From contig NZ_CP073760.1 in the NCBI RefSeq assembly GCF_018399035.1, positions 248,001 through 312,000 on the forward strand: 64,000 nt of DNA. Reading direction: 5' to 3'. A model generated the notes under the pieces. The model worked only from the letters and a program-made list of their open reading frames with translations. It was not told the origin of the DNA and ran no database searches. Each line of letters begins with the position of its first letter. The stretch's first letter is position 1. The translations under genes were made by a program, and so were the position numbers. The stretch is from Thiocapsa sp. Its GTDB lineage: Bacteria; Pseudomonadota; Gammaproteobacteria; Chromatiales; Chromatiaceae. Positions 1 through 12,811 of this stretch are shown here, piece by piece.

Positions 1-93
1 GTTTTCCGTCTTTCGCTTCTGCTTATCTTCTTTTTTCTTTTTTTTCTGCAGGTCGCGCTGACGTTTCTCGAACGCATAATTTGTTTTAGCCAT
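1..93 (-). CDS. small Lys-rich hypothetical protein, 3' end outside window
   Basis: The minus strand opens with ATG at 91-93 and reads MAKTNYAFEKRQRDLQKK and then an almost uninterrupted run of Lys, Glu, Arg and Gln for 31 codons before the window ends. I recall short basic proteins with this MAKTNYxFEKRQ start as a conserved hypothetical in gammaproteobacteria; no function is known to me. No membrane segment or signal peptide is visible. The C-terminus and stop are outside the window. Initiation at this ATG is the only plausible choice in the visible sequence. Confidence 0.6.
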   Translation of the reverse strand, partial: MAKTNYAFEKRQRDLQKKKKKEDKQKRKTEN

Positions 94-642
94 CGTGATG
101 TTCTCGCTATTCGGCGCCGAGACAGTCGAGACTGCCGGTCGGGCACCGGAAAAGGGGGTTTGAAGAGGAGGCGAGGAGGTCGGATCCCTTCGTTGTGGTG
201 GAAAGGTCTCCTTACTCTTGCCTTCGTGGCGTGCTCCCGACGGATGGGGACTGGATCCATGGGCGCGATCCGGCATGGCTTGCGCGGTTCACGAATACGC
301 ATCGAGAAGCGCGGCTGCCTCGCTTCGTCCATGCCGGAGAACCAGTCCTCGATCAAGCCGATCACCGAGCGTAACAGCATCGGCTCGGATGCTCTAGCGA
401 GAAGGGCTGCCGATGACCGATGCGGTTCGCAAACGCTCGGAATCCTCGGGGCATGTGCAAGGGTAGAGCGAACAGCCTGTCAGGTCTGCGATGACTCCCG
501 ACGATTGCAAGCTAACGGGAGCATTCTTGCGGTAGCTCGGCGGGGTGGGCGGGGGTGGCTCGGCGTCTTTCAAGCCGACGCCGGGGGCCTTTCCTCGCGG
601 ATGGCCCTCGGCCCCGGCAACGGTCGTCGCCTGCAAGGCCGG
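94..642. other. 549-bp stretch with no recognisable gene
   Basis: Both strands contain open frames here, but none has a convincing start site, domain or amino-acid composition; they are Arg/Ala/Gly-rich as expected of non-coding high-GC sequence. I see no tRNA, terminator or palindromic repeat family member. It borders truncated gene fragments on its right and may be decayed coding sequence. Confidence 0.5.
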
Positions 643-870
643 TCAGCCGACGCCGCCGAACCAAAAGGCGGTGTCTGCCCCCAAGAATTGGCCGTGGGGC
701 ATGTAGTGAGAGCCGTCGCAGGAGAAGGTCAGGCCCACCATGCCGTTGAAGAGGTTGATGGACGACTGACGCAGGTAGATATTCTCGTCCACCAGCCGCA
801 AGCCCTTTAGGCGATCAAGGACCGGGACGATGTCGGTGCTCGGGATCACTGCGTCGATCGGATAGCGGCA
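643..870 (-). pseudogene. C-terminal fragment of an unrecognised gene
   Basis: The minus-strand frame that stops at 643-645 is protein-like from about 865 downward, with segments such as LRLVDENIYLRQSS and FNGMVGLTFSCDGSHY and a C-terminus ending AFWFGGVG. Upstream of about 865 the same frame is simply the antisense of the DUF3141 gene. It therefore looks like the 3' end of a gene cut off where it meets the DUF3141 fragment. I do not recognise the family. Confidence 0.35.
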
Positions 871-2179
871 GATCAGCTGGATCGTCGAGAATCTCTTCGT
901 CGGCAATCGTCTCGGACGCGGCTGTGCGAATCTCAACGAGCGCACCCATGTGGATCTGCGCAACATCAACTCCCCCATCATCATCTTCGCCTCGCACGGG
1001 GACAACATCACTCCGCCGCAGCAGGCGCTGGGATGGATCGCCGATCACTACAAGGATGTCGAGGAGATCCGCGCCCGCGGACAACGCATCCTCTATACGC
1101 TCCACGAGAATGTCGGCCACCTGGGAATCTTCGTTTCCTCGTCGGTCGCCAAGAAGGAGCACGATCAGATCATCTCCACACTCAAGGCGATCGAGGCCCT
1201 GGCGCCCGGACTCTACGAGATGGTCATCGCCGAGGTGCAGGGCGAAGGGGTCGAGAAGACCTTCAAGGTCGCCTTCGCCGAGCGCAGCATCGAGCAGATG
1301 ATGGAGCAGGCCGGCGGGGACGATTCCAACCGACCCTTCGCGGCGGTCGCGCGCTTCTCCGAGATCGGCACCGAGCTGTATGACCTGACCCTGCGTCCCT
1401 TCGTCCAGGCGATCAGCAACGAGACCAGTGCCAAGTTTCTCGCCGATACCAGCCCGATGCGGATGCAACGCTGGCTCGAGAGCGATCGCAACCCCTTGAT
1501 GCAGGCTGTCCAGGGGTTCGCTGAAGAGGTCCGCAAGCAACGTCGCCCGGCTGCGGACGACAACCCCTTCCGGATCATGGAGCGGGCCGGCGCCGGCTTG
1601 GTCACCCAGTGGCTGGACAACGCGCGCGACATGCAGAACGCCGTGATCGAGTGGAACTTCCACCTGCTCTGGGGTGCACCGCCCGTGCAGGCGATGGGCG
1701 AGCAGCTCAGCCGCACCGTGAGCGAGGCGCCGCGCGAGGATCTGCGGACCCTGACCTCGGTCCAGGATGCGCTTGATCGAATCGAGCTCGGCGATTTTGC
1801 GGACGGTGTGATCCGGATGCTGATCTTCCTGGCGCACTCGCGTAAAGAGGTGCGGCGTTCCCGTTTGGAGCGCTCCAACCGCATGCTCATGGCGACCGAG
1901 CCCTTCGCGAGCATGAAGGCGAAGCACCGCACCCGCATGATCCACAAGGAAAGCCTGATCGTCGGCTACGAGCCCGAGGCCGCGATGGACGCCTTGCCGA
2001 AGCTGATCGTCTCGATGGAGGATCGGCGCCGCGCGATGGCCCTCTGCGAAGAGATCGCCGGCTCGCGCGACGAGATGAGTCCGGAGACCCTCGCGATGCT
2101 CGATCGCTTGGCCCGGGCGCTCGAGCTCGATCCGGCGCCGGTGTTGGTCGAAACCGAGACCCTGCGTAAGATCGCCTGA
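866..2179 (+). pseudogene. DUF3141 (PHA-synthase-like alpha/beta hydrolase) gene, 5' truncated
   Basis: The frame is open from 866 (an in-frame TAG lies at 863-865) and encodes QISWIVENLFVGNRL followed by DLRNINSPIIIFASHGDN and ITPPQQALGWI. This is the C-terminal half of DUF3141 proteins, large proteins with a polyhydroxyalkanoate-synthase-like alpha/beta hydrolase fold, usually around 700-800 residues as I recall them. Only about 437 codons remain; the N-terminal half, including the nucleophile region, is missing. The first ATG (950) has no ribosome-binding site. The break at about 865 coincides with the start of an unrelated minus-strand fragment, which suggests a deletion or rearrangement. 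A draft-assembly join cannot be excluded. Confidence 0.7.
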
Positions 2180-2284
2180 GGGAGCAGAGCAGGGCGGGGC
2201 GGTCGACAGCGGATTGGCCTGCCCCGCAATCGAGGCCGAACCGCCACGCCGGCGAGATCAATCCGCGATCGAGCGAGGACAAGA

Positions 2285-3235
2285 ATGACGAACGAGCGTG
2301 ACGAGCGGATCCCGCAGCCTCTGCGGGATTGGCTTTTTGCCCAACGCGAAGCCAAGCACAAGGCCCGTGAGCATGGCTATCGACGCACGGCCACCAATAC
2401 CCGCGAAGGATGGGATTTGCTGACCAGGCGGTTCGTGACCGAGTCCCCCGAGGTCGCTTGGGTGCGCGACGACCTGATCCCGGGTCCGGACTATCGGGTT
2501 CCGGTCCGCGTCTATCACCCGCAACCGGATCGGCCGCTCCCCGTGGCCCTCTTCGTCCACGGCGGCGGCCACATTGCCGGCGGTGTCTCACTCTACGATC
2601 CGATTGCGCGGCGCTTGGCGCTCGCGGCAAATCGGGTGGTGGTCTCGATCGAATACCGGCTGGCACCCGAATGCCCCTATCCGGCCGCACTCAAGGACAC
2701 TATGGCCTGTGCCAAACGTGTTTTTCCGCTGCTTGAGAATCTGGACATGCCGCATGAGCCGCGACTGGCGCTGATGGGCGACAGCGGCGGGGGTGCGCTC
2801 TGCGCGACCGTGTCGCATCTGGCGCAGTTCGACGCGGGCATGACGATCGAGCGTCAGGTGCTCCTGTACCCGAGTCTGGATTACACGCTCTCGCAACCTT
2901 CCGTGACCGAGAACGGCGACGGATACCTGCTCGAGCGCGAGCGGATCCTCTGGATGTTCGATGCCTATCTTCAGAATGCCGAGGACCGGCGTGCCATCTC
3001 GCCGTTCTATATGGACCTGACCCTGGACTATCCCGCGACCCTGGTGATCACCGGGGAGTTCGATCCGTTGCGCGACGAGGGCATTGCCTACGCCGACCGC
3101 TTGGAGCTTCAAGGGATCCGCGCGGAGAAGCGGGTCATGTCGGGGATGATCCATGGGTTCCTGAACCTCGAGGCCATGGTCCCGGATGCCTGTGCCGAGG
3201 TGTATGCAGCAATCGGGACCTTTTTGAACGCCTAA
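2285..3235 (+). CDS. alpha/beta hydrolase, HSL/acetyl-esterase family
   Basis: This 316-residue protein is a serine esterase of the hormone-sensitive-lipase type, probably cytoplasmic because no signal peptide is seen. The oxyanion motif HGGG is at residues 92-95, the nucleophile elbow GDSGGG at 165-170 (Ser167), the acid is likely Asp260 in GEFDPLRDEG, and the base His290 in MIHGF. Length and motif order match Aes-like acetyl esterases; the natural substrate cannot be deduced. A GAGGAC stretch just upstream of ATG 2285 serves as ribosome-binding site. The gene follows the DUF3141 remnant by 105 bp. Its TAA stop forms the first bases of a family-A palindromic repeat. Confidence 0.88.
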   Translation: MTNERDERIPQPLRDWLFAQREAKHKAREHGYRRTATNTREGWDLLTRRFVTESPEVAWVRDDLIPGPDYRVPVRVYHPQPDRPLPVALFVHGGGHIAGGVSLYDPIARRLALAANRVVVSIEYRLAPECPYPAALKDTMACAKRVFPLLENLDMPHEPRLALMGDSGGGALCATVSHLAQFDAGMTIERQVLLYPSLDYTLSQPSVTENGDGYLLERERILWMFDAYLQNAEDRRAISPFYMDLTLDYPATLVITGEFDPLRDEGIAYADRLELQGIRAEKRVMSGMIHGFLNLEAMVPDACAEVYAAIGTFLNA

Positions 3236-3318
3236 ACCGCGCCAGCTCCGACGGTCGTCGGAGCCGGCGCGGCCAATCCACTCCAACACATGACGCATGC
3301 CGCACCGGGCGCGGTTTA
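3233..3318. repeat. family-A palindromic element, copy A1
   Basis: An 86-bp element begins TAAACCGCGCC and ends GGGCGCGGTTTA, its reverse complement. Its first three bases are the stop codon of the upstream esterase. Further copies are at 23996, 24104, 28811 and 42847, with partial copies at 36712, 20058 and 6060. Confidence 0.75.
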
Positions 3319-3355
3319 AGCCGAAGTTCCAGCCTTCAACGAGCATAAGCCAACT

Positions 3356-3381
3356 GATTTTCTGATGGTTTTCAGAAAATC
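3356..3381. repeat. perfect 10-bp inverted repeat
   Basis: GATTTTCTGA and its reverse complement TCAGAAAATC are separated by 6 bp. It lies 18 bp past the stop of the chimeric Rpn/IS1634-type gene on the minus strand. It could be a weak terminator or part of an insertion-sequence end; the stem is AT-rich and no clean U-run follows. Confidence 0.4.
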
Positions 3382-3398
3382 GCGGTGTAAGCGTCTGG

Positions 3399-4382
3399 CT
3401 ACACGCGGATCGCTTTGATCAGATCCAGCGCGGCAGACTGCTTGGGCGTAGGTGTCGTGTCGATGTCGAAAGTGGCCTCGTCGGATGGCGCGTTCGGGCG
3501 CCGACAGGTGTTGCGCACGATGGTCGCAAGGTCGTTCAAAAGGGTGCGAAAGCTGTGTGCCGGGGAGCCGTCCGGCAGCTGCTTGGTGGCGGCCTTGCGC
3601 AAGGCCGCCTCGGAGCGGGTGGCCGGCGCCACCGGATCACGCCGGGTCAGACGCTCCTGATCCTCGTCGGCGAATAAGAGCCCGCGCCAGGCTTCACTCA
3701 TATGCCATTTCACGTAATAGGCGAGCATGCACAAGAACAGATGCGCGCGGACCCGATCCGCGCTGTAATGATAGATCGGCCTGATCTGCAGATCATCGCT
3801 TTTGAGCGAGCGGAATGCCGCCTCCACGTGACTGAGGCTTTTGTATCGACGCACCGTCTCGTCATCGCTGGACTGCTCAGCCGGCAGCGAGGTGCGAATC
3901 ACGTACAGTCCATCGAGCGCGGCCTCCGCGGTCACCTTCGCCTCATCGATGTGAAAATCAAAGTGTTCGGCAGCAATGTCCAAGATGAGGTGTTTGGCCA
4001 TCTTGTATGTGTTGACGACGCGCCAGATCGCATAGGTCGGTTTGAGGATGCTGTAGTCTTGACCGCGACGCAGTTGTCGGCGGTACAGGTCCGCCCGGGC
4101 GTACAGCATGCGTGTGGTCAGATCCGCATAGACCACCAACTGGATCTCGATCTGAAAGACCCGGCCGGCGGCGTCGCGGGCTTTCACGTCGACGATGGTG
4201 AGTTTGTCCTCGAGGGTTTCCCGTGGGTTGTAGGGATCGAGGATCCGCACCGCGCTGATCGGACGGGGGAGCGTGTCGATCAGCATCGCATTGAGAAAGT
4301 CGATGAGCAGCGCGCGGTTCTCCTCCGCGCCCAGCAGGGCTTTGAAGGCACAGTCGACTTTTGGATTGATCTTGTGCTGCAT
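3399..4382 (-). CDS. chimeric ORF: Rpn/PDDEXK nuclease N-terminus joined to IS1634-type transposase C-terminus
   Basis: The first about 120 of 327 residues match Rpn (PD-(D/E)XK) recombination-promoting nuclease/putative transposase proteins: INPKVDCAFKALLG, LLIDFLNAML, KLTIVDVKARD, FQIEIQ and GQDYSILKPTYAIW. From about NTYKMAKHLILDI onward it matches the C-terminal third of IS1634-family transposases, including YKSLSHVEAAFRSLK, which carries the catalytic Glu and a YREK-like signature, and DRVRAHLFLCMLAYYVKWHM. The two catalytic Asp residues of a complete IS1634 transposase are absent, so transposition is unlikely. The nuclease motif residues of Rpn appear present. The joint is in frame. I used ATG 4382; another in-frame start lies at 4415, and neither has a clear ribosome-binding site. 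Confidence 0.75.
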   Translation of the reverse strand: MQHKINPKVDCAFKALLGAEENRALLIDFLNAMLIDTLPRPISAVRILDPYNPRETLEDKLTIVDVKARDAAGRVFQIEIQLVVYADLTTRMLYARADLYRRQLRRGQDYSILKPTYAIWRVVNTYKMAKHLILDIAAEHFDFHIDEAKVTAEAALDGLYVIRTSLPAEQSSDDETVRRYKSLSHVEAAFRSLKSDDLQIRPIYHYSADRVRAHLFLCMLAYYVKWHMSEAWRGLLFADEDQERLTRRDPVAPATRSEAALRKAATKQLPDGSPAHSFRTLLNDLATIVRNTCRRPNAPSDEATFDIDTTPTPKQSAALDLIKAIRV

Positions 4383-4518
4383 GCGAAGAGTGTACGGCTG
4401 CCGAACGACATGCACAATGCCAAGAGCTCAACCGACGGGTGCGGAGTCTCAGGGTCGGTCGAGGGTCGCATCGAGGGCGACGTCGGCCTTGTTTGTCGCT
4501 CCAGCTCAGCCAGCACGG

Positions 4519-4571
4519 GGCGCAGAGCGCCAGGGGCATGCGTGACACCGCCGCAGAGCGGGTGTCACGAG
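4519..4571. repeat. family-B double-palindrome element, copy B1
   Basis: Two palindromes in a row: GGCGC-AGA-GCGCC, then GTGACACC...GGTGTCAC. The order and spacing are the same at 6671-6722 and 59733-59782. Confidence 0.65.
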
Positions 4572-4597
4572 AACATCGATCCGAGCCGGTTGCAGGC

Positions 4598-4888
4598 TCA
4601 GGCTGCGTCGTGCAGGACCTTCGCGACAGCTTCGGGCATGCGAGCAATCACGCGTAAGTAGCTCTTGGCGGCCGTATCCGGTGCCTTGCGCCCCTGTTCC
4701 CAATCACGAAGAGATTCGGCGGGGATGCCGAATTGCTCTGCAAAGTTCTGTTGAGAGAGGCCGGCTGCAGCCCGGGCGCGGCGCGCCAACATCGCCCCGA
4801 GACCGCGCTCGAACTCGTCGTCGGAGAGCGGAGTATCGGGTTCAAGTTCAACGGGGTGTGCAGTGGTATCGTCGTGATTCGCGATCAT
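4598..4888 (-). CDS. XRE-family antitoxin partner of BrnT-like toxin
   Basis: This 96-residue protein has an acidic, probably disordered N-terminus (ELEPDTPLSDDEFERG) and a helix-turn-helix: AAAGLSQQNFAEQFGIP followed by AESLRDWEQGRKAPD, at about residues 40-75. It overlaps the 3' end of the BrnT-like gene by 41 bp on the same strand, so the toxin gene is promoter-proximal. HTH antitoxins of such pairs usually bind their own promoter and neutralise the toxin; that role is inferred from family and arrangement. Most BrnT toxins pair with BrnA ribbon-helix-helix proteins, so the XRE partner is a variant arrangement. Confidence 0.75.
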   Translation of the reverse strand: MIANHDDTTAHPVELEPDTPLSDDEFERGLGAMLARRARAAAGLSQQNFAEQFGIPAESLRDWEQGRKAPDTAAKSYLRVIARMPEAVAKVLHDAA

Positions 4889-5123
4889 TTGCTTTTCTCA
4901 CGCTGAAGATTCGGTATCGGTTTCCGCGTTGGGTGAAAACGCACAGCCAGACTCGCCGCTCCACCATGCCGTAGGCGATGAAACGCTCCTCGGCGTAGTC
5001 AAAGCGCACGTCCAGGATGTCCAACCGGTTGGAATCGGCAAGGATCTCGATCCCGAACGCGAGGGAAGCTCCGTGCTTTTGTTGATTGGCCGAATCCTTG
5101 TCGGGATCGAACTCGATATCCAT
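4848..5123 (-). CDS. BrnT family (DUF497) ribonuclease toxin
   Basis: This 91-residue protein starts MDIEFDPDKDSANQQKHG, the typical BrnT opening, and continues with FGIEILADSN, DVRFDYAEERFIAYG and a C-terminal RIFSVRKANDRESRRY. BrnT toxins are small RelE-like ribonucleases that arrest growth when the antitoxin is lost. Length is normal and no frame disruption is seen, so it may be active. The downstream XRE gene overlaps it. The pair sits among truncated genes and repeats, a usual setting for mobile toxin-antitoxin cassettes. Confidence 0.8.
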   Translation of the reverse strand: MDIEFDPDKDSANQQKHGASLAFGIEILADSNRLDILDVRFDYAEERFIAYGMVERRVWLCVFTQRGNRYRIFSVRKANDRESRRYHCTPR

Positions 5124-5228
5124 GTGGGAACTATGTGGTAACAGTGAGCGGGGAGCAAGGGGATCAAGAATTCAGAGGGAAAGGAAGATCAGGTTCAAAT
5201 GTCGCTCAACTTAAGGTCGGCCCCCTGC

Positions 5229-5339
5229 AGGTCGGACTTCAGTCCGACCTGCTCTCGGCGTCATCGCGCAGCGCGGGTGTCGCGCTCGACGCCGAGCGCT
5301 GGGTGGCCTGAGAGGGCATTGTCGGGCTGAAGCCCGATC
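5229..5339. repeat. two short perfect hairpins (GTCGGACTTCAGTCCGAC type)
   Basis: AGGTCGGACTTCAGTCCGACCT at 5229-5250 is shown here only by its half-site AGGTCGGACT and complement; a related GTCGGGCT/AGCCCGAC hairpin lies at about 5320-5337. The rest of the 5124-5427 interval holds no gene that I can recognise. Confidence 0.5.
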
Positions 5340-5427
5340 CACTTCAGATGTCGTGATCGCAGGCAGTCACGCGCCGCAGTTCATCGCGCTGCACCGTCGA
5401 TGTCACCAGCTCGAAGCGCGCCGCCCG

Positions 5428-5508
5428 CTAGGCACGATAGATCGTTTCAAGCGGGCCGTGCGCCGAGGTCAGCGCGGCGAGCAGCACATTGGTGTCCAGA
5501 TAGCCCTT
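5428..5508 (-). pseudogene. PIN-domain (VapC-like) toxin, N-terminal fragment only
   Basis: The minus frame encodes KGYLDTNVLLAALTSAHG and stops eight residues later. LDTNVLLAAL with its Asp is the start of a PIN ribonuclease domain, normally about 130 residues; only about 26 remain. No start codon precedes the Lys codon in a sensible position. The frame upstream (5510-5690) is open but unrecognised and could be remains of the cognate antitoxin. Confidence 0.5.
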
Positions 5509-5817
5509 AGCGGATTCGCGGATCTCCGAGTGGTGCGTCGGACTCTCCTGCGATATCGGCGCGAGCACTAAGGCGTCGTCCTCGGACAGGAGGTCGTCCA
5601 GTGTCCAGCCTAGCCCGTCCGCGGCCCGCTTGTGCTTGGTTCGGGGAATGCCGCGTGCCTTCCATGCTGGTTGCGTGTGTGAACGAGGCTCGATCCCGGC
5701 GCCGGCATGGGCGGGCTGCGGTTTGGGGGTCGCGCCGCCCGCGCCGGCAGCAAGCTGCGAGGTCCGTGGAGCACAGTTCCGAGTTTTCATCGCCGCATCG
5801 ACGCGAGGGCACTGATC

Positions 5818-6084
5818 ATGACCACAACGGCAGAGGAGGTTTGGGGATTGTTGAGGGAGTTGACTCAATCGCAGCAGGAGACCGATCGGCTCATGAAAGA
5901 CACCGATCGGCGAATGCAGGAAACCGATCGCAGCATGAAAGACACAGATCAGAGAACTCGGCAAGCAGATTGGCGGCTTGGGCGAGAAATTCGGCAGCTT
6001 CACCGAAGGCTTGGCGTTGCCCTCGATGGAAAACATCCTGCGCACGCGCTTCGGCATGACGCATACCGCACCGGGCGCGGTTGA
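5818..6084 (+). pseudogene. DUF3782-like coiled-coil protein, frameshifted and truncated
   Basis: From ATG 5818 the frame encodes MTTTAEEVWGLLRELTQSQQ and then repeated ETDRxMK(D/E)TD heptads. Near 5945 the homologous sequence jumps to the +1 frame, which reads IRELGKQIGGLGEKFGSF and TEGLALPSMENILRTRFGM, the continuation expected for this family (DUF3782-like is my recollection). After that motif the sequence runs into a partial family-A repeat, and the rest of the gene, which would carry the PD-(D/E)XK-like region, is missing. One frameshift plus truncation make it a pseudogene. Confidence 0.6.
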
Positions 6085-6108
6085 ATGAGCGAGGCCCGGA
6101 AAGAGTCT

Positions 6109-6462
6109 TTATAGCCATTTTCCGGCGGCGATGATGAGCGCGGCGATGGTCGTGATGAAGCCGATCAGCCACATGAACTGATGGTCGTGACGCTTGATGA
6201 GATCCTCGATGCGTTTGTCGCTTTGTTCGAAGCGTTTGTCCATCTGCTCGAAGCGCTTCTCCATCAGCTCGAAGCGCTTCTCCATCTGCTCGAATCCCTG
6301 CCGCATCAGCTCGCCCTGATGTTTGAGCGCCTCCTCGACGCGCACCATGCGCTCGCGCAGCTCGATCTCATAGACGACGGAGGGTTTTCCGAGGCTTTGC
6401 TCGGCGAGCCACTCGCCCATGTGGGCTTTGATGAATTGGATATCGTCCTGGGAGAGGGCCAT
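6109..6462 (-). CDS. coiled-coil protein with C-terminal membrane anchor
   Basis: This 117-residue protein contains a long amphipathic coiled coil built from near-identical heptads (FEQMEKRFELMEKRFEQMDK, residues about 60-85) and a C-terminal hydrophobic helix FMWLIGFITTIAALIIAAG that would anchor it in the inner membrane. Its start at 6462 is chosen because GGAGG lies five bases upstream; a longer frame runs back to 6555 without a ribosome-binding site. Function is unknown. It resembles the coiled-coil proteins often found near PD-(D/E)XK transposase-like genes, and the neighbouring plus-strand fragment (5818) has a similar heptad style. Confidence 0.6.
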   Translation of the reverse strand: MALSQDDIQFIKAHMGEWLAEQSLGKPSVVYEIELRERMVRVEEALKHQGELMRQGFEQMEKRFELMEKRFEQMDKRFEQSDKRIEDLIKRHDHQFMWLIGFITTIAALIIAAGKWL

Positions 6463-6670
6463 GGTGACCTCCGTTGCAACACCGCCGGGCTTAAACTTAC
6501 AGACATGATCCACCGGGGACGTGGATTGCGCAATGACCGGTCGCCTGAGGGTCAATGGGCGGTTTTCTCATGGACAGGGATCCGCGGTACCGCGGAGAAT
6601 CCTCGTGCCCGGCCGTTGTGTCGACGAGACCCCGGCAGGTTCGCTTGTGACTCGGGCCAAAGTTTGCGCG

Positions 6671-6722
6671 TGGCGCAGAGCGCCACGGGGCATGCGTGAC
6701 ACTGCGCAGCGGGTGTCACGAG
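6671..6722. repeat. family-B double-palindrome element, copy B2
   Basis: TGGCGC-AGA-GCGCCA followed by GTGACAC...GTGTCAC, as at 4519 and 59733. It lies about 70 bp upstream of the DAHP synthase start. Confidence 0.65.
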
Positions 6723-6794
6723 TCCTCTTCAGGCTTGGGGGCCGGTCTCATGATCGACGCCACCCCGGGCCTTCGTTTGAATTCTTCAAGGTGA

Positions 6795-7877
6795 ATGCGC
6801 GTGCAGAAAACGGAAAACCTCAACGTCAGCGGCTTCGATCCGATGCCTTCGCCGCTGGAAATCCATCGTGCCGTGCCGACCTCGGATCAGGCATCGGCGA
6901 CCGTGCTCGCAGGTCGCGAGAGCCTGCAGGCGATTCTGGATCGGCGTGATCCTCGGATCTTTGTCGTCGTCGGGCCTTGCTCGATCCACGATCCGGTCGC
7001 CGGCTTGGATTACGCGCGGCGGCTCAAGGTTTTGGCGGATGCGGTCTCGGATCGCTTGGTCTTGGCGATGCGGGTCTATTTCCAGAAGCCACGCACGACC
7101 ACCGGATGGAAGGGTTATATCAACGATCCGAACCTGGACGACACCTTCAGTATCGCCGAGGGCATGGAGAAGGCGCGGCGATTTCTGCTCGAGGTCACCG
7201 AGCTGGGTTTGCCCACCGCGACCGAGGCGCTCGACTCCATCGCCCCGCAGTATCTGTGGGACCTGATCTGTTGGACGGCGATCGGTGCGCGGACCTCGGA
7301 GTCGCAGACCCATCGCGAGATGTCCTCCGGGTTGTCGACCCCGGTCGGCTTCAAGAACGGCACGGACGGCTCGGTCGACACCGCGATCAATGCGATCCTC
7401 TCGGCGGCCCAGCCGCACAGCTTTTTGGGCATCAATGCCCAAGGTTTGACCAGTATCGTCAGGACCCGCGGCAACCGCTACGCACATCTGGTGCTGCGTG
7501 GCGGGGGCAATCGCCCCAACTACGACACCGTCAGCGTCGCGATGGCCGAGGAGGCACTGGTCAAGGCCGGGCTTTCCGCGAACATCGTCATCGACTGCTC
7601 GCATGCCAACAGCTTCAAGCGACCGGAGCTTCAGCCGCTGGTGATGCACGATTGCGTGAACCAGATCGCCGGCGGAAACCGCTCGATCGTCGGCTTGATG
7701 GTGGAGAGCTTCATCGAGGCCGGACAGCAATCGATCCCCGCAGACCTCGAACAGTTGCGCTACGGCTGCTCGGTGACGGATGCCTGTGTCGACTGGCCGA
7801 CCACCGAGCGCATGATCCGCGATGCGCACGCCGCGCTGCCCGACTCGGTCCTGTCGCGGCGCATGCTCGATTTGTGA
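6795..7877 (+). CDS. 3-deoxy-7-phosphoheptulonate synthase (class I, AroF/G/H type)
   Basis: This enzyme condenses phosphoenolpyruvate and erythrose 4-phosphate, the first step of the shikimate pathway to aromatic amino acids (and, in phototrophs, quinones). The 360-residue protein has the class I alpha signatures VVGPCSIHDP (about residue 58), RVYFQKPRTTTGWKG (about 93), SESQTHREMSSGLSTP with the metal and substrate residues, and GFKNGTDGS. Length is normal for E. coli-type isozymes. Which amino acid feedback-inhibits it (Phe, Tyr or Trp) cannot be decided by eye, so no symbol is given. It is a single-gene unit flanked by a family-B repeat upstream and a family-C repeat directly at its stop. 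Confidence 0.92.
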   Translation: MRVQKTENLNVSGFDPMPSPLEIHRAVPTSDQASATVLAGRESLQAILDRRDPRIFVVVGPCSIHDPVAGLDYARRLKVLADAVSDRLVLAMRVYFQKPRTTTGWKGYINDPNLDDTFSIAEGMEKARRFLLEVTELGLPTATEALDSIAPQYLWDLICWTAIGARTSESQTHREMSSGLSTPVGFKNGTDGSVDTAINAILSAAQPHSFLGINAQGLTSIVRTRGNRYAHLVLRGGGNRPNYDTVSVAMAEEALVKAGLSANIVIDCSHANSFKRPELQPLVMHDCVNQIAGGNRSIVGLMVESFIEAGQQSIPADLEQLRYGCSVTDACVDWPTTERMIRDAHAALPDSVLSRRMLDL

Positions 7878-8005
7878 CGGTTCCGAGACAGGGTGAGCAC
7901 GTTGATTGACGGGTCGTGCCGCCGTCCGGGTTGGGCGTTTGAGCTGTGAGGATGGGTTTCGCTGCGCTCTACCCATCCTACGCGTTTCGGGTGTTTTTGG
8001 ATCGT
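7877..8005. repeat. family-C composite element, copy C1
   Basis: The element begins ACGGTTCCGAGACAGGGTGA, contains the core GGATGGGTTTCGCTGCGCTC with its complement CCCATCC, and ends GTGTTTTTGGATCGT. The ends are imperfect inverted repeats of each other. It fills the gap between the convergent DAHP synthase and folE genes. Confidence 0.6.
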
Positions 8006-8022
8006 CAGTTGGATCGTCGCGA

Positions 8023-8661
8023 TCATCCCTTGATAAACGACATGAACTCGGAGCGCGTGCGCGGATCGGTCTCGAAGGTGCCGCGCATCGCGCTCGAGAC
8101 GGTCGAGCTGCGTTGTTTCTGCACGCCGCGCATCATCATGCAGGTGTGGCTGGCTTCCATGACGACGGCGACACCGTGCGCGCCGAGATGCTCCATGAGG
8201 GAGTCGGCGACCTGGCTGGTCAGGCGTTCTTGGACCTGCAGGCGGCGTGCGAAGACGTCGACCACGCGGGCGATCTTGCTCAGGCCGACGACCTTGCCGT
8301 TGGGCAGATAGCCGACATGGGCGTGGCCGAAGAAGGGCAGCATGTGGTGCTCGCACATCGAGTAGAACTCGATATCGCGTACGACCACCATCTCCCTGAC
8401 GTCTTCCTCGAAGAGCGCCTTCTTGATGATCTCCTCGGCGGACATGGAATAACCGCTGGTGAGGAAGTCCATGGCCTTGGCGACCCTCAAGGGCGTGCGG
8501 CGCAGACCCTCGCGATCGGGGTCTTCGCCGATCTCGCCGAGCATGCTTTTGACCAAAGCCTCTTTGCGCTCGTCGTAGACCTCGTCGTCGGAATCGGCCT
8601 CGAAGCTGGTGGCGTAATGGCTGTGCGTGAAAACCTGAGTGAGCTTGGGTTTCTCTGCCAT
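8023..8661 (-). CDS. folE: GTP cyclohydrolase I
   Basis: FolE converts GTP to 7,8-dihydroneopterin triphosphate, the entry to folate (and other pterin) synthesis. The 212-residue protein shows the zinc and active-site motif [10 protein letters not shown] (Cys103, His106), the second zinc Cys174 in [10 protein letters not shown], and conserved [10 protein letters not shown] and [15 protein letters not shown]. The start at 8661 gives [10 protein letters not shown] and the normal type IA length; a longer frame reaching back to 8994 has no FolE homology. It is transcribed toward the DAHP synthase gene. Family-C repeat C1 separates the two convergent stops. The 623-bp gap upstream, before the NAGGN operon, holds only repeat D1 and no recognisable gene. 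Confidence 0.94.
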
Positions 8662-8788
8662 GGTGTTGCCTAAATGGTCCTGGTGAGGTGATCCGGGAGA
8701 TGTCTTTGGGCACCCTGCCGGATGTCGACTTGAACAGATGCTGGACAAGAGGGTGGGGCCACGCCGGACAAATGGAACTAGCGCAGCC

Positions 8789-8906
8789 GTGCAGAGTTTC
8801 CGAGACCGTCCCAGATCATTTCGTTGTCGTTGTCGTAATCGTGGTCGCCGTCGTATCGATGGTCGATGACGACAACGACAACGACAACGAACGGTTTCGA
8901 CAGCAC
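8789..8906. repeat. family-D element with GTTGTC microsatellite hairpin, copy D1
   Basis: Left end GTGCAGAG...CGAGACCGT, then repeats of GTTGTC, a short spacer with TCGATGGTCGATGA, then the complementary GACAAC repeats, and right end ACGGTTTCGACAGCAC. The ends are inverted copies. It lies between the divergent folE and NAGGN operon starts. Confidence 0.65.
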
Positions 8907-9284
8907 TTGGCGACCCGCGGCGTCCGTTCGACGGGTCTGCCGACGCTCCGGGGGTGGTCGCGCGGTGGCCAGACGCGCCCGCATTCGGTATCATCTATGC
9001 GTGTTCATCGTGAATTTCCAGATCCGCGGACGAACGGCGATGCCGATCCCGCAGGTCTTGCTGCCCCGCTTTCGTATCGCCTGCACACGGCGTCGTCCCT
9101 GTGTTTCGGACCCCTGCGTCGGGTTCGATCCCTAAGCGCCTCGCACCAAAACCCCGCCCCGCCCGAATCGATTTCGTGCCATCCGAGTGCAGCGGCCGAG
9201 CCAGGGCGACGCCGGCGCACGACTCAGTGCCCTCGCGTCTGCCAGCCCGCCACATCCTGTACTCCGGACCTTCAGGAGAGCCTC

Positions 9285-11060
9285 ATGTGTGGACTTTGCG
9301 GTGAGATCCGCTTCGACGACAACCCGATCGACCTCGGCGCCTTGAGCGCCATGAGTGCGGCCATCACGCCGCGCGGCCCGGACGGCGACGGCCTCTGGCA
9401 GCAGGGACGGGTCGCGCTTGCGCATCGCCGACTCTCGATCATCGACCTGAGCAACCATGCGGCGCAACCCATGGTCGACAGCGCGCTGGGTCTCTCGATC
9501 GCCTTCAACGGCTGCATCTACAACTACAAGGAGCTGCGCGCCGAGCTGGAAGGCAAGGGCTATCGGTTCTTCTCCCACGGCGACACGGAGGTGGTCCTGA
9601 AGGCGTTTCATGCCTGGGGCGATGCCTGCGTGGATCGCTTCCACGGCATGTTCGCCTTCGCCGTCGCCGAGCGGGACTCCGGTCGTCTGACCCTGGTGCG
9701 CGACCGTCTCGGCATCAAGCCGCTCTATTACGCCGAGGTGCCGGGCGGGCTGCGCTTTGCCTCGACCTTGCCGGCGGTGCTCGCGGGCGGCGGTGTCTCG
9801 ACCGAGATCGACCCGGTGGCCCTGCATCACTACATGCACTTCCATGCCGTGGTCCCGGCACCGCACACCATCCTGAGCGGCGTGCGCAAGCTCGCGCCCG
9901 CGACCATTCGGACCATCGAGCCGGACGGACGCCAGCGCGATCGCTGCTACTGGGATATCCGCTTCGTGCCTCGCCCCGAGGAACGTGATCTGTCCTTCGA
10001 GGATTGGCAGGAGCTCACCCTGTCCGCATTGCGCACCGCCGTTGCGCGCCGTCTGGTGGCGGATGTCGATGTCGGCGTGCTGCTGTCCGGCGGGTTGGAT
10101 TCGAGCCTCATCGTGGCCCTGTTGGCCGAGCAAGGCCAGCGCGGCATCAACACCTTCTCGGTCGGCTTCGAGACGGTCGGGTCCGAGGTGGGCGACGAGT
10201 TCCAGTATTCGGACATCATCGCCGACACCTTTGCGACCCGTCACCACAAGATCCGGGTCGACTCGGCCACGCGTCTCCTGCCCGAGCTGCCCAACTGCGT
10301 GCGCGCCATGGCCGAGCCCATGGTCAGCCACGACGTCATCGGCTTCTATCTGCTCTCGCAAGAGGTCGCCAAGCATGTGAAGGTGGTGCAGAGCGGGCAG
10401 GGCGCCGACGAGGTCTTCGCCGGCTATCACTGGTATCCGCCGATGCTCGGCAGCACCGATCCGGTCGGCGACTATGCCCGAGCCTTCTGCGATCGCACGC
10501 ACGAGGACTATCGTCGCGCGGTCGATCCGCGGTTTCACGGCGAGGACGCCAGCCGTGCCTTCATCGCCGCGCACTTTGCCCGGGCCGGTGCGGATGCCCC
10601 GGTCGACAAGGCGTTGCGGATCGATCAGCAGATCATGTTGGTCGACGACCCGGTCAAACGCGTCGACAACATGACCATGGCGTGGGGCCTGGAGGCGCGC
10701 GTCCCTTTCCTCGACCACGAGCTGGTCGAGCTGGCCGCGCGCATGCCCGATCGGCACAAGCTCTGCGACGAGGGCAAAGGCGTGCTCAAGGCGATCGGTC
10801 GTCGGCTGATCCCGACGTCGGTCATCGACCGGCCCAAAGGCTACTTCCCGGTGCCCGCGCTCAAGTATCTGCGCGGCGATGTCTTGGCGACCGTGCGCGA
10901 TCTGCTGCATTCACCGCGCGCCCGCGAGCGGGGTCTCTTTCAGCCGGCCTATCTCGACACCCTGCTGGCGGCGCCGGACGATCACCTGACCCCGCTGCGC
11001 GGCTCCAAGCTGTGGCAGGTCGCGCTGTTGGAAATGTGGCTGCAAGAGCAAGGGGTCTGA
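9285..11060 (+). CDS. N-acetylglutaminylglutamine amidotransferase (asparagine-synthetase-like)
   Basis: This 591-residue class II glutamine amidotransferase starts MCGLCGEIRF with catalytic Cys2 and has the N-terminal hydrolase motifs ITPRGPDGDG and HRRLSIIDLS. The C-terminal synthetase domain has the PP-loop VLLSGGLDSS at about residues 262-271 and EARVPFLDHELVELA. AsnB homologues next to a GNAT/ATP-grasp protein form the NAGGN system, where this enzyme amidates the dipeptide to N-acetylglutaminylglutamine amide, an osmoprotectant. The start is fixed by the required Cys2 and by CAGGAGAG upstream. The synthetase gene follows after 5 bp and the M42 peptidase overlaps that one, so the three form an operon, probably osmotically induced. 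Confidence 0.9.
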   Translation: MCGLCGEIRFDDNPIDLGALSAMSAAITPRGPDGDGLWQQGRVALAHRRLSIIDLSNHAAQPMVDSALGLSIAFNGCIYNYKELRAELEGKGYRFFSHGDTEVVLKAFHAWGDACVDRFHGMFAFAVAERDSGRLTLVRDRLGIKPLYYAEVPGGLRFASTLPAVLAGGGVSTEIDPVALHHYMHFHAVVPAPHTILSGVRKLAPATIRTIEPDGRQRDRCYWDIRFVPRPEERDLSFEDWQELTLSALRTAVARRLVADVDVGVLLSGGLDSSLIVALLAEQGQRGINTFSVGFETVGSEVGDEFQYSDIIADTFATRHHKIRVDSATRLLPELPNCVRAMAEPMVSHDVIGFYLLSQEVAKHVKVVQSGQGADEVFAGYHWYPPMLGSTDPVGDYARAFCDRTHEDYRRAVDPRFHGEDASRAFIAAHFARAGADAPVDKALRIDQQIMLVDDPVKRVDNMTMAWGLEARVPFLDHELVELAARMPDRHKLCDEGKGVLKAIGRRLIPTSVIDRPKGYFPVPALKYLRGDVLATVRDLLHSPRARERGLFQPAYLDTLLAAPDDHLTPLRGSKLWQVALLEMWLQEQGV

Positions 11061-11065
11061 TACCA

Positions 11066-12811
11066 ATGAGCAGAGATCGAATGCGTCATCGACTCGAGCG
11101 CAGTCGTGCTCCGTCGCTCAAGAACTGGGACCGCCAGCCGCGCGCGGATCAGGCGTTCGGTCAGCCCGCGATCGTCGACTGCGGCTGGGGGCGGTTGCTC
11201 TTCGGTCAGACCTTTTCGGACCCCAGGGCACTCGCCGATGCGCTCCGCGAGGAGCACCGCGGCAAGCGCGACGTGGCGCTCTATCTGAGCGATCCCCATG
11301 TGGTGCTCTCCTACGCGCCGCGGGACCTGTTCCTGGACCCGTCCCACACCTTCCGCCTCTGGTTCGAGCGCTATCAGTGCTCGCCGCGTCGGCCCAAGGG
11401 CTTTCATGTGCGCTTGCTCAACAGTCGCGACGACGCCGAGGCGATCCACCGGCTCTATGTCGGCCGGCGGATGGTGCCGCCGAGCGTGGACTTTATCCGG
11501 GAGCAGCGCACCTCCAAGATCCTGACCTACTGGGTCGCGGAAGAGGAGCAGGACGGCCGTATCCTGGGTGCGGTCACCGGCGTGGATCATGTCGCGGCCT
11601 TCGCCGATCCCGAGAACGGGGCCAGCCTTTGGGCGCTCGCCGTCGATGCCCAAGCGCCCTATCCGGGCGTCGGGGACGCCTTGGTGCGACAGGTGATCGA
11701 GTACTATCAGGCGCGGGGTCGCGGCTTTCTGGACCTTTCGGTCATCCACGACAACACCCAAGCCATCCGGCTCTATCGCAAGCTCGGTTTCGAGCGGATC
11801 CCGGCGTTCGCGCTCAAGAACAAGAACGCCTTCAACGAGCCGCTCTTCATGGGGCAACAGCCCGAGGCCAAGCTCAATCCCTACGCGACCATCATCGTCA
11901 ACGAGGCGCGTCGGCGCGGGATCGCGATCGAGGTGCTGGATGCCGAGGGTGGTTATTTCGCCCTGGTGCTCGGCGGGCGCCGCATCGTCTGTCGCGAGAG
12001 TCTGAGCGAGCTGACCAGCGCCGTGGCCATGAGCCGCTGCGACGATAAGGCGGTGACGCATCGGCTGTTGCGCAACGCCGGTCTGCGGGTCCCGGAGCAG
12101 ACCCGTTTCGAGGCGTTGGATCAGGCCGAGGCGTTTCTCTCCAAGCTCGGCCGCGTGGTCGTCAAACCCGTGCGCGGCGAGCAGGGTGCCGGAATCAGTG
12201 TCGACGTGCGCGATCCCGAGACCCTCGAGCGTGCGATCGCCGCGGCACGGCGGGTCTGCGACCAGGTGATCCTGGAGGAGTATGTCGCGGGCGATGATCT
12301 GCGCATCGTCGTGATCGCCGACCAAGTGGTCGCCGCCGCGATCCGTCGACCGGCGCAGGTGGCCGGGACCGGTCAGCACAGCGTGCGTGACCTCATTCAG
12401 GCCCAAAGTCGACGTCGCCGCGCGGCAACCGGCGGGGAGAGCAGCATCCCGATGGACGACGAGACCAAGCGGTGCGTCGTCTCCTCCGGCTACGATCTGG
12501 AGACGATCTTGCCGGAGGGCGAGGTGCTCGTCGTGCGCAAGACCGCGAATCTCCACACCGGCGGGACCATCCACGACGTCACCGCGCAGCTCAATCCCGT
12601 CCTCGCCGAGGCCGCCGCGGCTGCGGCGCGGGCGTTGGCGATCCCGGTCACCGGGCTCGACTTCCTTGTTCCTTCGGTGCGCGGGACCGATTATGTGATC
12701 ATCGAGGCCAACGAGCGGCCCGGCTTGGCCAATCACGAGCCCCAACCGACCGCCGAGCGTTTCGTCGACCTGCTGTTTCCTCAGACCGCCGCCCGGGAGT
12801 CCATGTCTTGA
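11066..12811 (+). CDS. ngg: N-acetylglutaminylglutamine synthetase (GNAT + ATP-grasp)
   Basis: This 581-residue protein joins two enzymes. Residues about 110-270 form a GNAT acetyltransferase (acetyl-CoA loop region VGDALVRQVIEYYQARGRGF, then LYRKLGFERIP). Residues about 285-575 form an ATP-grasp ligase (VVVKPVRGEQGAGIS, VILEEYVAGDDLRIVV, VTGLDFLVPS, IIEANERPGL). This fusion is diagnostic of the NAGGN synthetase, which acetylates glutamine or the dipeptide and ligates two glutamines. Its start ATG is 5 bp after the amidotransferase stop, and its TGA overlaps the TTG start of the M42 peptidase. Confidence 0.9.
   Translation: MSRDRMRHRLERSRAPSLKNWDRQPRADQAFGQPAIVDCGWGRLLFGQTFSDPRALADALREEHRGKRDVALYLSDPHVVLSYAPRDLFLDPSHTFRLWFERYQCSPRRPKGFHVRLLNSRDDAEAIHRLYVGRRMVPPSVDFIREQRTSKILTYWVAEEEQDGRILGAVTGVDHVAAFADPENGASLWALAVDAQAPYPGVGDALVRQVIEYYQARGRGFLDLSVIHDNTQAIRLYRKLGFERIPAFALKNKNAFNEPLFMGQQPEAKLNPYATIIVNEARRRGIAIEVLDAEGGYFALVLGGRRIVCRESLSELTSAVAMSRCDDKAVTHRLLRNAGLRVPEQTRFEALDQAEAFLSKLGRVVVKPVRGEQGAGISVDVRDPETLERAIAAARRVCDQVILEEYVAGDDLRIVVIADQVVAAAIRRPAQVAGTGQHSVRDLIQAQSRRRRAATGGESSIPMDDETKRCVVSSGYDLETILPEGEVLVVRKTANLHTGGTIHDVTAQLNPVLAEAAAAAARALAIPVTGLDFLVPSVRGTDYVIIEANERPGLANHEPQPTAERFVDLLFPQTAARESMS

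Follow-up and report, generated by a model that had tools for sequence, protein, structure and literature searches.

An in-phase chimera of Rpn nuclease and IS1634-family transposase sequence in Thiocapsa sp., very probably left by a deletion

One uninterrupted reading frame in Thiocapsa sp. begins like an Rpn nuclease and ends like the transposase of an IS1634-family insertion sequence (IS). Does it encode a new fusion protein, or is it what remains after a recent deletion between two neighbouring elements? A sequence-only reading of the window (the whole 64,000-nucleotide stretch that was analysed) had raised both possibilities. We propose that the chimera is, with little room for doubt, an ordinary deletion scar in which a single illegitimate deletion joined two neighbours lying on the same strand.

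Two truncated parents in one open frame

The minus-strand open frame comprises 338 aa when it is counted from a GTG at 4415. Its start, however, is probably the ATG at 4382, which aligns with the start of an intact Rpn paralogue (L128:1562-2452) and yields a reading of 327 aa; because the Met of the intact paralogue corresponds to this ATG, we take 3399-4382 to be the right extent of the gene. The 327-codon frame is intact across the joint, which is in phase and free of stops, exactly as the sequence-only reading had described it. In the 338-aa reading, the Pfam profiles PDDEXK_2 (residues 18-135, profile positions 1-117 of 229, E 1.7e-27) and DDE_Tnp_1 (residues 105-233, E 2.7e-5) both match. 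The NCBIfam models TIGR01784 (Rpn; residues 19-139, profile positions 1-117 of 273, E 3.6e-24) and NF033559 (IS1634 transposase; residues 128-333, profile positions 317-479 of 483, E 2.1e-30) each exceed their own cut-offs. Automatic naming is therefore ambiguous: annotation could call the chimera an Rpn nuclease or an IS1634 transposase, and chimeric pseudogene is the better label. Nothing in PADLOC matches the chimera at E 0.01, and a scan of 3200-4700, which is weak on non-sigma-70 promoters, gave no promoter and no terminator (0.4 and 1.1, respectively, in shuffled sequence). The features of the locus are collected in Table 1.

Table 1. Features of the chimera locus, in window coordinates.
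Feature	Position	Strand	Basis
Chimeric open frame	3399..4415	-	Open-frame reading; start placed by intact Rpn paralogue L128:1562-2452
Rpn/PDDEXK_2 N-terminal part, 120 codons	4023..4382	-	Pfam, NCBIfam, 94.6% DNA identity to paralogue, conservation comparison
Joint region, where the matches to both parents overlap	4022..4027	-	Alignments to Rpn paralogue and IS
IS1634-family transposase C-terminal third, 207 codons	3402..4022	-	DNA/protein match to intact relative, NF033559, motifs
Surviving IS right end; inverted repeat CCGAAGTTCCAG at 3321-3332, TTAA outside at 3316-3319	3317..3335	-	Compared with L127 and L179 ends
Dispersed repeat of about 87 bp with hairpin; its first bases are the esterase stop codon	3233..3319	+	Genome pattern counts, flanks

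That the first 120 or so residues are Rpn/PDDEXK-like had been proposed from the letters, and it is borne out by Pfam, by NCBIfam and by DNA identity to a paralogue. The closest match to the Rpn part lies in the same genome (G000:C1:1032811-1033221) and shares 94.6% DNA identity with it over 411 bp; a second own-genome match, at 546613-547161, takes in the upstream DNA as well at 85.8% identity. The nearest paralogue encodes an intact 296-aa protein, of which the 176 C-terminal residues have no counterpart in the chimera. The chimera thus resembles the Rpn family (PF12784 PDDEXK_2 / TIGR01784) in its first 120 or so residues, where its protein identity to the own-genome paralogue is 90%, but beyond them neither the remainder of the domain nor the variable tail at the C-terminus is present, both profiles being covered to position 117 only.

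What is present is the N-terminal PD-(D/E)XK core with its conserved D and ExQ. D65, E79 and Q81, which we take to be the catalytic nuclease motif of Rpn, are all retained in a comparison of 21 distinct close sequences from the loci of this analysis (tblastn matches with E no higher than 1e-15, the shorter ones left out), one row of which is the chimera itself, entered via locus L132. Three substitutions in the chimera, V12A, L83V and W96R, fall at positions that at least 85% of these 21 rows conserve, and the last of these replaces a Trp found in all 20 other distinct close Rpn sequences compared. E. coli RpnA and its relatives belong to PF04754. For these E. coli proteins, one report places the PD-(D/E)XK core at the N-terminal side of a conserved domain that extends further, and describes truncation of the RpnD tail as reducing, but not eliminating, recombination activity and toxicity (PMC5350276). 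A second report describes the C-terminal segment of E. coli Rpn as also being translated separately, as the inhibitor RpnS (PMC10327210); no counterpart of this segment is left in the chimera. Because the rest of the conserved Rpn domain and the tail are both gone, a nuclease function of the chimera seems unlikely, albeit not impossible. Elsewhere in the genome, Rpn genes and fragments of such genes are clustered at G000:C1:1038970-1049356, where an internal TAG occurs in three matched pieces.

The rest of the frame had been read as the C-terminus of an IS1634 transposase with the Glu region and without the Asp motifs, and both NF033559 and a motif comparison agree. The transposase part begins at residue 378 of an intact 584-aa relative, whose 377 N-terminal residues are gone. 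Absent from the chimera are the motifs YDLSS (187) and VGDRGM (264), which presumably carry the two Asp of the DDE triad, and retained is SHVEAAFRSLK (441), which presumably carries the Glu; of a complete catalytic triad, the Glu-region motif alone is left. The best relative is a same-genus element on a 221-kb contig, in which inverted repeats CCGAAGTTCCAG, themselves flanked by direct TTAG copies, enclose an unbroken 584-aa transposase (L127). Identity to this element is 93.1% over 711 gapless bp of transposase part and IS end, and 95% at the protein level. The same arrangement recurs in a copy from G196 that is more distant, at 76% protein identity, and there the flanks are direct CTAG (L179); from these two copies we read a four-base direct repeat at the flanks of the IS. 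An annotated IS1634 family transposase on a plasmid of Candidatus Thiodictyon syntrophicum shares 77% protein identity with the last 207 residues. In the own genome, the next matches to the transposase part, with every candidate scored, share 44-45% identity with it over 67 residues, and a DNA search gave no second match among the 40 of 486 candidates that were scored.

The chimera is therefore like IS1634-family transposases in its last 207 residues and in the retained right inverted repeat, but residues 1-377 of the transposase, two of its three catalytic motifs and the left IS end are missing. The right-end sequence CCGAAGTTCC is present once in the window, at 3321, and the left-end complement GGAACTTCGG is absent from the entire window, leaving one terminal inverted repeat at the chimera locus in place of two. 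Since the two Asp motifs and one end of the IS are missing, we do not expect the product to transpose. The DNA-binding regions of such transposases are usually N-terminal. What remains here is the C-terminal third, and the DNA-binding tail suggested by the sequence-only reading finds no support.

The joint and the proposed deletion

Identity to the IS relative spans 3317-4027 of the window and identity to the Rpn paralogue spans 4022-4432, so that the two overlap by 6 bp. Read in the direction of the gene, with a slash at the joint, the chimera has ATCTGGC/GCG, the two nearest Rpn paralogues have ATCTGGC/TGC, and the IS has GTCGGGC/GCG; the longer reads are ATCTGGCGCGTC for the chimera, ATCTGGCTGCTC and ATCTGGCTGCTT for the paralogues, and GTCGGGCGCGTC for the IS. 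The bases GGC (4024-4022) are common to the chimera, the Rpn paralogues and the IS. The last Rpn codon is codon 120, and it is followed in phase by transposase codon 378.

We propose that the IS lay either beyond the 3' end of the Rpn gene or within its 3' part, and that an illegitimate deletion occurred at about three shared bases (GGC). Such a deletion would have taken the last 176 Rpn codons, anything that lay between, and the left 1.24 kb or so of the IS together with its left inverted repeat; with lost parts of the length seen in the relatives, this would amount to at least about 1.8 kb. For the two frames then to be in phase, the chance was one in three. Truncated and chimeric genes commonly arise from deletions at insertion sequences, and the scars that such deletions leave, including chimeric pseudogenes, are of a known kind. 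The chimera is like them in that a truncated, one-ended IS is joined to a truncated neighbour at a few shared bases, and it differs in that its two frames happen to be in phase. We favour a deletion scar because both parents exist intact elsewhere (the Rpn gene in the own genome, the IS in the same genus), because their matches meet with so short an overlap, and because the right inverted repeat survives with the left one nowhere in the window. The suggestion of a recent deletion between neighbours thus stands as far as the deletion is concerned, now that the parents have been located, the joint has been mapped to a few bases and the right IS end alone has been found; that the deletion was recent we infer as probable.

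The distribution of the chimera also argues for a deletion scar, as it was found nowhere else searched. Although 39 of 210 genomes of the order match the chimera at E 1e-20 (up to 10 candidates scored per genome), residues 1-338 are covered in just one, its own. The transposase part alone is matched in 18 of 93 genomes including its own, and besides that genome only G010 is close. None of 232 matching plasmid records and none of five matching phage records covers 80% of the chimera in one place, and viral contigs scanned with the chimera gave three pattern matches and no relative. Across genome contigs, 459 stretches encode a confirmed relative of the transposase part; no Rpn match at E 1e-5 accompanies it at any of the 80 of these loci that were examined. 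Instead, at least 60% of the transposase N-terminal part is present upstream at 71 of the 80. Five of the remaining nine have fewer than 450 bases of DNA before the match, and the last four comprise two that continue into transposase upstream (L123 and L124), one that runs into masked letters (L065) and one with a stop eight codons upstream (L103). The search for the joint in other genomes, which the sequence-only reading had recommended, thus recovers it from nowhere beyond its own genome among the 210 genomes, the plasmids, the phages and the 80 loci, and a conserved fusion family, with the same domain order in independent genomes, was not seen. Among the papers listed by our literature search, none dealt with an Rpn-transposase fusion of this kind, which is no proof of its absence in print.

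A similar argument for the deletion scar comes from the esterase next to the chimera. When 29 genomes were searched for it, four others of the same genus had the esterase, with 93-96% identity. Over the 3.2-4.9 kb past the esterase in these four, blastn with window 1-12000, a search that a much diverged Rpn would escape, gave no match to the Rpn or the IS part; the window match there is a copy of the dispersed repeat, in G008 alone. The parents were not found intact at the chimera locus. No genome searched showed the arrangement that would have preceded the deletion, and this we count against a deletion scar.

Frame integrity, selection and competing explanations

An intact frame across the joint had been called unexpected for random decay. 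This expectation fails: a third of all joints between frames on the same strand are in phase, and neither part would naturally contain stops, which makes an intact frame unsurprising. When 22 random substitutions were placed on 327 codons in a simulation of substitutions only, 59% of the frames stayed stop-free, and with 10 substitutions 79% did so. Polarised by outgroups, the branch leading to the chimera carries 9 changes within its Rpn sequence; for the transposase part the number is 13 by three of four outgroups and 16 by the other one. Some of these changes, we think, predate the joint, in which case the chance of a stop-free frame would be higher still. We infer that the main reason for the open frame is its young age.

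In the Rpn part, the chimera branch has 6 non-synonymous and 3 synonymous changes and the paralogue branch has 3 and 4, with 1 unresolved; the 6:3 ratio, which includes W96R, is a further reason to favour a deletion scar. In the transposase part (outgroup L047), the chimera has 3 non-synonymous and 10 synonymous changes and the intact IS has 6 and 9, with 8 unresolved. The transposase part therefore looks constrained, and we count this against a deletion scar together with the intact nuclease D, E and Q and with the fact that, on the chimera branch, the ratios of the two parts do not differ significantly (Fisher p = 0.079). We ascribe the transposase-part changes to a time when the IS was intact and active, before the deletion, although a selected fusion would look the same.

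Such a fusion would combine the PD-(D/E)XK core with a transposase-derived oligomerisation or nucleic-acid-binding tail and would be kept by selection. An in-phase joint without a stop, the intact D65, E79 and Q81, and the 3 non-synonymous against 10 synonymous changes of the transposase part are all consistent with it. However, the chimera occurs in one genome alone among those searched, the match to PDDEXK_2 ends at profile position 117 of 229, three well-conserved positions are altered (including an Arg at an otherwise invariant Trp), and most simulated frames stay open under 22 neutral substitutions. The new fusion protein of the sequence-only reading, with its nuclease domain halved, is thus left with no positive support, and we regard it as highly improbable. 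Just as improbable is that the 327-residue chimera is expressed and active as a newborn fusion that has not yet spread, its Rpn core freed from the C-terminal inhibitory segment. If active, the chimera would exemplify the separation of a toxic nuclease core from the inhibitor built into it; by itself, it is of little significance.

An assembly error linking an Rpn paralogue to an IS1634 copy is slightly less probable again. Although Rpn genes are multicopy in this genome, its sequence consists of one 5.7-Mb contig. It contains no other close copy of the transposase part, and the nearest copy of the Rpn part is 5% divergent in DNA, so that an assembler would have met no long identical repeat at the joint to mislead it. 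Direct insertion of the IS into the Rpn gene, at codon 120 or close to it, with later loss of its own left part, would explain a joint that lies inside the Rpn gene and has few shared bases, but we give it scarcely any credence, because the dispersed repeat and the esterase, and not the rest of Rpn, lie beyond the right IS end and further loss would be needed.

The dispersed repeat and neighbouring genes

The right end of the IS directly adjoins the dispersed repeat, whose ends are TAAACCGCGC...GCGCGGTTTA. In the own genome, the hairpin part of this MITE- or REP-like repeat occurs 43 times and its tail 54 times (at most 2 mismatches), and a reversed-pattern control gave 0. A G or an A follows the terminal TTTA in all of the 23 repeat copies that were compared together with their flanks, which fits the TTAG, CTAG and TTAA at the IS ends. 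The IS appears to have inserted at the far end of the repeat, opposite the esterase side. The tail of the repeat also occurs at 6057-6084 (1 mismatch in 28), where it ends a short open frame (5707-6084) with ETDR/MKDTDR repeats. This frame has no Pfam match at E 0.01 and, by eye, resembles a gene that has been truncated and frameshifted.

Just upstream of the chimera, 4598-5123 on the minus strand encodes a BrnT toxin (PF04365, E 2.7e-21) and then a helix-turn-helix protein (HTH_31, E 5.5e-7) in which BrnA gave no match; the two are likely to form a toxin-antitoxin pair. Between this pair and the Rpn part, a stretch of about 59 bp (4513-4571) recurs in other loci at 88-93% identity and in varying orientation, mostly near Rpn genes of the own genome and also near an IS locus in a genome of the same genus (L028). 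It is more likely to be another dispersed repeat than a promoter.
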